Shown here piece by piece: positions 12,842 to 15,800 of a stretch of DNA of 64,000 bases. Position 1 is the stretch's first letter. The number at the start of each line of letters is the position of its first letter. The stretch is from Bolinopsis microptera (Eukaryota; Ctenophora; Tentaculata; Lobata; Bolinopsidae): contig NC_087072.1 in NCBI RefSeq assembly GCF_026151205.1, positions 7,178,084 through 7,242,083 on the forward strand, read 5' to 3'. Made by a program: the position numbers and the translations under genes. A model generated the notes under the pieces. The model was not told the origin of the DNA, searched no databases, and saw only the letters and a program-made list of their open reading frames with translations.

Positions 12842-15800
12842 TCAATCTGAATCGCTATCTGAATTTCCAGAAATCTTTCCAAACAGACTCTGAGGTGTAA
12901 GAACTGTCAAAACCTTGATTTTAATCAATAAAACATTAGGTACTAATGAAAAATACATAGTTTCTGACGAGAAAAAGCTATGAGATGATGGTTGAAAAAT
13001 TCAAGATCTTAAGTACCTGAGTTACAGTAGCAACAGATTTAGCAACTGATTTCGTTCCCTCCTGCACTGCTCTGCTTACTGCCCTAATTGATTTCATCGG
13101 GCCACTACCTGATGGGGTCACAGTTAGCACTATCGGATATTTTAAACATACAGTATACTAAATAAATGTGGTATGTGAGAAATGGTGCATTGAGAATAAT
13201 CGATACAAATTAGATGATTCACGCATGCTGGATTATTTACGGGTTTGGTTTTCCGATTGGTCTACTTACCACTAGATTCACTAGAAACTGAGCATTCCTT
13301 AAGATCTAGAGGATTACTCTTGAAGCCTACATATTTTAGATCCTGGAGGAAAAAAACTGTGTTATCAAAATGAGACTCCGTTTAAATCAAGATGATCTGT
13401 AGTGATGGTACATTATAATTATAGAAAATTAGTTTATATCAAAATGATTTTCCTTATTATAAAGATACTCAAATCCAAATACCACGTCACCTCATAATCC
13501 TCTCTCTCTAGGATGAAGACCATAAGATGGTGAAGGTAGATGTACTGCTGTACAGTGGCTATCATCATAGGACGCTGCTGTCGCAATGCGTTCGTCAGTC
13601 CTAGTGCACAAAGATAGATGAACTACAGGTTTGTCGATATTACTTACTAATTGATCTGATATTTCGCTTAACCTTTTAATTTTAGATTTTCACCAATTCT
13701 AATTAAAACTGAAAGTGTTGAGATGAAATTAAGTATACCTGCAATGTTGAGGTCTGTCTCGCTGATCAGTCTGTCCAGGATGTAGTCAGTGGCGCAGAAC
13801 AAACTCGCCCAATCTGACCCGTATTCACTGAAATTGTATTCCCAGTGTACTTTGTTTCTCGTTCAGTAATCTCAGTTTTCACCGAACTGACCAACATATC
13901 CCTCAACGATATCTTTATATTGTTTAATACCAAATAGCAGTGGCAACACAGCAGTTGAATTTTTTCTTACCTGTGCATGATGATAGGACCCTTTGTTAGG
14001 TTGAATTTAATTATGTCACGATGGAACAATATCATCTTTAGGAACGCTTGCATGTCCGGTTCCCCGTTCTCATCCCATTTGTCGAAATGAATCTAAAGGG
14101 GAACTGGTGATTGATCTACTTAAAACTTAATATTTTAAAACTTCAACATCAAATTTTTGCAGTGTATTGCAATTAACTTTAAGGTTTTAAGCTGAGTTGA
14201 TTGATCAAAGTCTGACCTGTTTGACAATGAAAGAATGTTGGTAGGGCAAATCTATTCCTGAAATAAATCAAGTTTAGTGCTAGCAAATTTGTGTAATTAT
14301 AATCGACATTTATATGATTGAAAATGTATTTGCTTCTTTAACCTTTGTAGTCCATCAAACAGTACTAACTAGTAATATCCGACTTCAACTCACTGTATTT
14401 TCCAGAGGAAGCTGATGTCTTAGCAGACCTCTGTGACAATGCAGTCTTTATTGATTTGGTGGTTTTCTCAGAGTAAGCCTCCGACTTTGTATCATCGTCC
14501 TCATCAGCATCTCCGTTTTCTTCCGTTTCAGCTTCTGTAGCGGCCTCCGTTGCTGTCAGGTTTGTCGCTGATGTTTCGGCTGCGGCCTCAGTTTCAGCTT
14601 CTTCTGTTGTATTTGTGCCTAAGGCTTCTGTTAGATTCGTTACAGATGGTTCTGGGGTCTCTACTGCCTCTTCCTCTACTGCCTCTTCTTCTTCCTCTGC
14701 AGCCTCTTCTTCTTCTGCTTCCTCCTCTTCTTCAACTTCCTCTTCTTCTTTCTCAACCTCTTCTTCAACTTCCTCTTCTCCGATTTCACTTAGTGAAGGT
14801 GAAGACGCTGGTGTTTCGGGCCACTGAAAATAGTCAATAATTTTGGTGCTTTGCAATACATTGTATGTAAGTAACTCTAGAGTTGCTTGTCACGAAAGTA
14901 GGAATATGTAGACTGCGATGTTATATCAATAGGTGATCTGGATAAGTCTAGGCATATAAGCTAGTGAATGAAATCAATATGGTAGCCTACCTCGACGGGG
15001 CCAACTTTGAACTGTCTGACAATGAAACCATCGTAATCTGTACTGGAAATGTTCTTAACCAGAATGTTGTCATACAGACCGTCATGTTCTGGCCAGTATC
15101 TGTGGTACTCTGTCGGACTGTCTATATCCCCTGAGATTAAGCAGGTCAGTCTCTGTATAGTGTTTTATATCATTGTGCCGCAAAAAAAACAAAACAGGAA
15201 GAAGCCTCGACTGATCGAGATCTTAGACAAAATACTAACCTGAAGGGTGCAAGTTGATCAGGATCCTAGACTGCTGTTCTACAACCATCTTCCAGAAGTG
15301 ATCTTTAGTATGTGGTAAAGGAGTCTGAGCCACAATGTACACTCTCGGTCCCTTCCAGCCGTTTATGTAGCTTGCGTTGTAGTAATCATCTAGGGGATCG
15401 TCCACTTTGCCGATCTTAACACGTGATATGTCGTACGGTACTATTCCCCTGATAAAAACATGGTTAATCGCGGTTCATATGTCCTGTGAGAAACCTAATT
15501 GAGTATCAGATTTATTTAGATTATAAGTTTATTTTCTAAAATGGTTACCATGGTTACTATGGTTACTATGGTTACCTTGCCCCGGCTTTGTTTTTCTTCC
15601 TGTTGTAAGTTGCCAGAGCAATGGATTTTTGTTGCAACGAGTCGTGCATGGGAATTAAGTTGAACTCTGCCTTCCACCTTGCTATACCACCGTTGTTAAA
15701 TATATCCGCCTGGGTTCACGTGGTTTATGTGTCTGTTTAATTTTTTCAATTTATACACAAATAACTTATAAGAGTTCAAATTTTTCAATGCATGATGAAG

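Follow-up and report, generated by a model that had tools for sequence, protein, structure and literature searches.

Gene A, on the minus strand of a 64,000-nucleotide stretch of the Bolinopsis microptera genome (the window, to which positions given without a contig refer), probably encodes a receptor that crosses the membrane once, with Ephrin_rec_like and sushi-like modules in a cysteine-rich ectodomain and, inside the cell, one dead protein tyrosine phosphatase (PTP) domain. It belongs to a group of four genes with graded loss of the active site. Ctenophores are a lineage argued to be the sister of the other animals, and most known examples of dead receptor phosphatases are the D2 domains of vertebrates, IA-2 and PTPRU. 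No description of a ctenophore family of dead receptor PTPs was found among the literature matches listed, which covered few subscription papers, and the words pseudophosphatase and ctenophore were not found together among them; where the literature paired ctenophore with protein tyrosine phosphatase, neither term stood in title or abstract. Among the matches listed in a wider literature search the term receptor tyrosine phosphatase was never used.

Gene model and active site of A

Gene A comprises 15 exons (16770-12842, minus strand) in a single open frame that runs through to the stop, and all 14 introns have a GT donor and an AG acceptor. The frame encodes, in this order, a sushi-like module, a transmembrane segment, one PTP domain and a tail (Table 1). 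The exon carrying the first part of the sushi-like module resembles by eye the stretch VVKCATKLPDCYRTC of the paralogue L017. A 15-bp minisatellite, CCCTAGTTACCAGTA, lies in the window at 16770-17360, immediately upstream of the acceptor of that exon, and is irregular in the duplicate of the gene, copy B. The 645-aa product matches PF00102 (Y_phosphatase) with E 2.7e-44 (152 bits, cut-off 20.9) and no other Pfam family at E up to 1. The best PDB match of the PTP domain has E 3.4e-55, and the closest solved relatives (best 60 of 244 matches) are receptor PTPs, which in the PDB alignments listed place HC(x)5R, or HDEHG in the case of PTPRZ D2, opposite the P-loop of A. The initial annotation had counted a single PTP domain, and indeed no second one was found between the transmembrane segment and the stop. 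It had not mentioned a Glu-rich stretch inside the domain, an insert of 143 residues with 46 Glu, 5 Asp and a net charge of -43.

Table 1 Positions of gene A, its probable ectodomain exons and copy B in the window
Feature	Position	Strand	Basis
Probable ectodomain exons of the same receptor	51340..52372	-	Pfam PF07699 (E 5.3e-9), reading by eye
Individual ectodomain exons	52372-52320, 52227-52208, 52140-52064, 51809-51680 (Ephrin_rec_like), 51516-51340 (sushi-like by eye)	-	
Exon, first part of membrane-proximal sushi-like module	16612..16770	-	Open frame with AG/GT borders
Exon, end of sushi-like module	16375..16435	-	Open frame model
Exon, transmembrane segment	16134..16245	-	Open frame model, read from sequence
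Exon, juxtamembrane stretch	15893..15987	-	Open frame model
PTP domain, 8 exons	13491..15709	-	Open frame model, Pfam PF00102, PDB match
Individual PTP exons	15709-15576, 15448-15240, 15130-14991, 14823-14394, 14257-14217, 14092-13971, 13827-13739, 13600-13491	-	
Exon, Glu-rich stretch inside PTP domain, ahead of WPD-loop strand	14394..14823	-	
Exon, degenerate WPD loop WDENGEP and start of P-loop	13971..14092	-	
Exon, remainder of P-loop	13739..13827	-	Ser codon AG/T split by intron 13970-13828
C-terminal tail, 3 exons, stop	12842..13342	-	Open frame model
Copy B of 11933-17465, indel-rich, frame-broken	45629..51181	-	Alignment, indel counts

The residue states of A were read from an alignment of 31 PTP domains, and all three features sought for an active classical PTP (HCx5R, the WPD acid and the KNRY Tyr) are degenerate. 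In the P-loop, HSEYGSDW, the catalytic Cys is replaced by Ser, the Arg by Trp and the second Gly by Asp, so that the dead P-loop first proposed for this DNA is borne out in the spliced frame. The general-acid loop had been described as departing from WPD, which is correct as far as WDE is concerned; its Trp is nevertheless retained, and WDENGEP aligns with WPDxGxP, with P changed to D and D to E. The KNRY Tyr is Ala (the motif reads KNKA, adjoined in the alignment by a two-residue insertion), and Ala also stands at the Gln262-like position. Retained are the His and first Gly of the P-loop, the Trp of WPD and the Gln266-like residue, the Gln labels following PTP1B numbering.

The splice that joins the two P-loop exons, 14092-13971 and 13827-13739, was predicted correctly, judging by its donor (CACAG/gtaag), its acceptor (ttcag/TGAATAC) and the open frame, and the Ser codon, AG/T, does straddle the intron, which is phase-2. 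HCx5R is found nowhere in the frame of gene A. Splicing the observed donor to any of eight other AG acceptors, which lie in the P-loop intron or in the first part of the exon after it, likewise fails to restore it in frame. The donor side of this intron splits codon 2 of the P-loop in A and codon 3 in six other domains (L011 D1, L011 D2, L018, L019, L027 and L017), and deletion of the Cys codon was therefore considered in place of a Cys to Ser change. The gapless match between HSEYGSDWA of A and HSPSGADYA of L017 favours a substitution, which would have occurred in the common ancestor and been followed by a one-codon shift of the intron in A. At another locus, L019 (C1:22396100-22399500), the start of the P-loop intron is occupied by a 36-bp minisatellite of 25 copies (locus positions 950-1850); its unit is the amplified end of the P-loop exon with the donor (VHC AG/gtaaattg), and the exact 16-base donor motif is present in 24 of the copies, making a row of many identical potential splice donors.

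On established PTP chemistry these replacements would exclude catalysis, and the PTP domain of A is predicted to be catalytically dead. Binding of phosphotyrosine is unlikely as well, because the P-loop is acidic and has no Arg, and the KNRY Tyr has been lost. The same losses bear on the idea of a natural substrate trap, which binds phosphotyrosine proteins without releasing them in the manner of laboratory Cys-to-Ser PTP mutants. Ser does stand at the Cys position in both A and L017, and the dead receptor PTP PTPRU still binds the substrates of its relatives according to the available text of PMC7320164. Against this, the Arg that would bind phosphate has been replaced by Trp in A and by Tyr in L017, A has neither the KNRY Tyr nor the Gln262-like residue and carries Glu and Asp in the P-loop, and phosphate binding is improbable on established PTP chemistry. 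With the Arg and the pTyr-loop Tyr lost and the P-loop acidic, A would thus be no such trap, and we hold this alternative to be very unlikely.

Copy B and the probable ectodomain exons

The window contains a second copy of the gene, copy B (45629-51181, minus strand), with 89.6% alignment to 11933-17465. Between 45629-50502 and 11933-16772 the two copies are separated by 284 indel events, 252 of which are 1 bp long, at a rate of 54.2 per kb within exons and 65.3 per kb elsewhere; substitutions amount to 31.9 and 31.2 per kb, respectively. Nine of the 15 exons of copy B have a net change of frame, mainly through 1-bp indels. Two clean duplicate pairs nearby in the window are less rich in indels (pair 22575/694, 4.1 indel events and 16.5 substitutions per kb; pair 33917/1683, 6.0 and 25.7). 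In pair 34599/25006, which has diverged further, the corresponding counts are 25.5 and 86.8. Noise comparable with that of copy B was found in 38500-39911 against 2348-3744 (47.4 indel events per kb) and in 41167-45209 against 3885-7893 (69.5).

Copy B is therefore probably an unpolished assembly duplicate, and the 12.7 kb between 38500 and 51181 probably represent unpolished sequence used as gap fill, and look as if taken from a long read that had not been corrected. Where the stretch aligns to its duplicate it shows some 47-70 indel events per kb, and gene models in it are untrustworthy. For the Bolinopsis microptera assembly the available text of the published description reports that gaps were closed with TGS-GapCloser, haplotigs purged and the sequence polished with Illumina reads (PMC10232365), and an unpolished stretch would be an exception to that polishing step. 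Further local duplicates with 90-99% identity (C1:7165924-7170778 and window about 19055-22051) suggest uncollapsed haplotypes in this part of C1.

The use of copy B as an independent witness was rejected, as 1-bp indels are about as frequent in its exons as outside. The initial annotation had pointed to the same Ser in both copies; the letters AG/T are indeed identical, but in a copy with this many frame changes they are no independent evidence. At the Arg/Trp position copy B has CGG and A has TGG, so that an Arg may stand in copy B in place of the Trp of A.

The probable ectodomain exons lie upstream of copy B, and the stretch that contains them (51300-52450 searched) occurs once in the genome, beside this noisy copy only; copies A and B are therefore probably two representations of one gene, and we take the exons to belong to gene A. 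No Ephrin_rec_like-type exon was seen by eye upstream of copy A (window 17400-34000). The transmembrane segment and the sushi-like module share the open frame of A, and the junction with the Ephrin_rec_like exons is out of phase: the phase at the end of the last ectodomain exon does not allow a direct join to exon 16770-16612, which implies that a small intervening exon is missing or that the sequence there contains an error. Ephrin_rec_like is the only Pfam family above the cut-off in the visible part of the A ectodomain, the N-terminal part of which was not found. Mammalian RPTP subgroups are distinguished by ectodomains of the FN3, Ig, MAM, carbonic-anhydrase or other types; in the available text of a review (PMC10815196) sushi, complement control and ephrin go unmentioned. 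Further upstream, at 52774-55292 of the window, there are long open frames, of which 54453-55292 resembles by eye a retroelement reverse transcriptase, and by eye the remains of other mobile elements.

Four receptor genes and the probable constraint on a dead domain

A genome-wide PF00102 profile search (264,652,675 bases in 232 contigs) gave at least 73 exon-level matches, from which 22 PTP domains were assembled in addition to A. The catalytic Cys position could be read in all 23 domains and is lost in two, A and L017. The P-loop Arg, cut off in L023 and L027, is lost in three of the 21 domains where it could be read, being Trp in A and L001 and Tyr in L017. Together with L018 these genes form a graded series of P-loops: HCSAGTGRTG in L018, HCSAGAGWTG in L001, HSPSGADYAG in L017 and HSEYGSDWA in A. 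L018, whose assembly contains two frame breaks (read by eye), has WPD and KNRY in place but Phe at the Gln262-like position. L001 (C5:16107486-16108199), with an intronless PTP domain, keeps the Cys and WPD, and its change is that of the P-loop Arg to Trp. The sister paralogue L017 (C5:19028452-19029703) has the same Ser as A, and the signature HSxxGxD[W/Y]A is common to the two.

In a midpoint-rooted tree of the 31 PTP domains, built with the P-loop and WPD columns removed and with bootstrap values not fully settled, A groups with L017 (99/99) and the four genes form one group (97/96) separate from the human D1 and D2 domains. Omitting A (SH-aLRT 93) or L017 (97, a starred value) still leaves the other three genes together on a single branch. 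The end branches measure 1.58 for A, 1.11 for L018, 0.49 for L001 and 0.48 for L017. The best tree pairs L001 with L018, weakly (84/40), and a clade of A, L017 and L001 is not rejected (p-AU 0.355); a single loss of the Arg is therefore possible, not demonstrated.

All four genes also have an Ephrin_rec_like match (PF07699, cut-off 23.1 bits) upstream of the PTP domain, with 36.2 bits at the locus of A, 39.8 in L001, 33.6 in L017 and 25.1 in L018, and cysteine-rich sushi-like stretches come after this module. In L017 a single open frame covers the module and the beginning of the transmembrane segment, and in L001 the module lies within 1 kb of the frame that bears the transmembrane segment and the PTP domain. 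In L018 the module lies about 8 kb upstream of the PTP exons, a putative link, and no transmembrane segment was identified at that locus. The membrane-near sushi-like modules have no Pfam match in A or L017 and matches below the cut-off in L001 and L018. Ig and sushi domains are encoded in an open frame further upstream of L001.

Over 264 residues A and L017 share 37.9% amino-acid identity, and at the fourfold sites of shared codon boxes 10 of 33 are identical (0.303 vs 0.264 expected at saturation); the corresponding values are 0.296 vs 0.229 for A and L001 and 0.421 vs 0.247 for L017 and L001. As HSxxGxD[W/Y]A is present in both A and L017, the simplest view is that the ancestor of the two was already dead, and the similarity kept since would then reflect selection on a non-enzyme. 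From the shared signature, the 38% identity and the near-saturated synonymous sites it is thus probable that the ancestor was dead and that both lines were kept. The notion of constraint as a pseudophosphatase, put forward in the initial annotation, gains from L017 and receives no support from copy B.

Losses in A and L017 tend toward the active-site columns. A keeps 5 of 16 conserved active-site columns and 24 of 42 others, L017 8 of 16 and 32 of 42; in one-sided Fisher tests the bias is weak for each gene (p 0.07 and 0.06), and p is 0.01 for the pooled 13/32 vs 56/84, a count over two related genes. There is no clear bias in L001 (15/16 and 35/42, p 0.94) or in PTPRZ D2 (8/16 and 27/42, p 0.24). 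The fold outside the active site, earlier called well kept, is thus only fairly preserved in A and better in L017.

The 24 of 42 columns, together with the longest end branch of the four, would also fit relaxed constraint in a young or relaxed pseudogene, in which the loss of phosphatase function is part of the decay of the gene and the frame has so far escaped breakage. The broken frames of the duplicate copy B and the single occurrence of the ectodomain stretch, with no such exon seen upstream of copy A, point the same way. We nevertheless consider a dying gene unlikely: splice sites and frame are intact across 15 exons, read error explains the indels of copy B better than decay does, and the dead signature is common to A and L017 at a near-saturated synonymous distance (33 fourfold sites), over which a frame free of selection would not have remained open. 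An error of assembly or base calling in an active gene is hardly credible, even though the region contains noisy duplicated sequence and copies A and B disagree at the Arg/Trp codon, since several separate motifs are degenerate in frame-intact sequence, AG/T is found at the Ser in both copies, and separate loci have the same signature (L017) and the same Trp (L001).

Known dead phosphatases and a possible role of the PTP fold

IA-2 and IA-2beta have one PTP domain. Like A, they (PTPRN, PTPRN2) are receptor-type proteins with a dead PTP domain, but the aligned segment of IA-2 (PDB 2i1y) reads HCSDGAGRTG and keeps the Cys and the Arg that A has lost. The IA-2-like gene of the genome is L020, with 2i1y and 2qep, which carries the label N2, as best PDB matches; L022 adjoins it in the tree (94/86). 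As A groups apart from L020 and L022, in a tree built without human IA-2, it was rejected as an orthologue of IA-2 (R8). Both L020 and L022 keep the Cys and the Arg, and their WPD reads WPM and WND, respectively.

PTPRZ D2 (R5) has, like A, lost the Cys and the Arg and has an acidic loop (HDEHGGVTAG). The D2 domains of PTPRZ and PTPRG are, however, second domains behind an active D1 and A has a single domain, which moreover falls outside the D2 group in the tree, so that A was also rejected as a D2 domain. The likeness of HSEYG to HDEHG of PTPRZ D2 is separated by the tree, where PTPRZ D2 joins the human D2 domains, both being long branches; PTPRG D2 was left out of the alignment. STYX and MK-STYX are cytosolic proteins, and STYX has Gly in place of the Cys. 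As far as the available text of PMC8907265 describes them, they are, like A, pseudophosphatases with mutated catalytic motifs, of the dual-specificity family in contrast to the classical PTP of A.

The available text of PMC7320164 describes PTPRU (R2B) as having an inactive first domain with a divergent pTyr loop and the WPD Asp changed to Glu; it resembles A in being a receptor with a dead membrane-proximal domain and the same Asp to Glu change, and differs in keeping the catalytic Cys and having two PTP domains, neither of which is true of A. The contrast with vertebrates drawn at the outset, that their dead domain is a second one, was thus overstated, IA-2 and IA-2beta also being named as the R8 pseudophosphatase group in the available text of PMC2638020. 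The same text reports that the D2 of RPTP-gamma covers the electropositive active site of its partner's D1 and that the D2 Asp1305/1306 mutants are monomeric.

The likeliest order of losses would begin with the change of the P-loop Arg to an aromatic residue. Next the Cys would have become Ser and the Gly Asp, the WPD acid being lost as well, and last, in A, the KNRY Tyr and the Gln262-like residue would have gone. With no catalysis predicted and phosphotyrosine binding unlikely, protein docking remains, for which PTPRU and RPTP-gamma are the known models. A would then be a ligand-binding receptor whose PTP fold offers a surface for docking or competition and there holds shared partners, or else an active receptor PTP present in the same cell; we infer a scaffold or decoy receptor as its function. 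The 143-residue acidic insert might, speculatively, act as a cap like that of RPTP-gamma. In its fullest form, which we judge distinctly unlikely, the proposal is that a ctenophore family of single-domain receptor PTPs changed one residue at a time from enzymes into binding modules, four stages of which survive in present-day paralogues. The insert of A, the most derived member, would then use its charge to cap the electropositive active site of a receptor PTP partner, in a more pronounced form of the acidic contact between D2 and D1 reported for RPTP-gamma.

If the reading of this ctenophore group of receptor phosphatases is true, it would show an independent conversion to non-enzymes. The four graded paralogues would provide a natural series for asking which residue loss matters and when, and a class of receptors in which the role of the PTP fold may be studied without phosphotyrosine chemistry.
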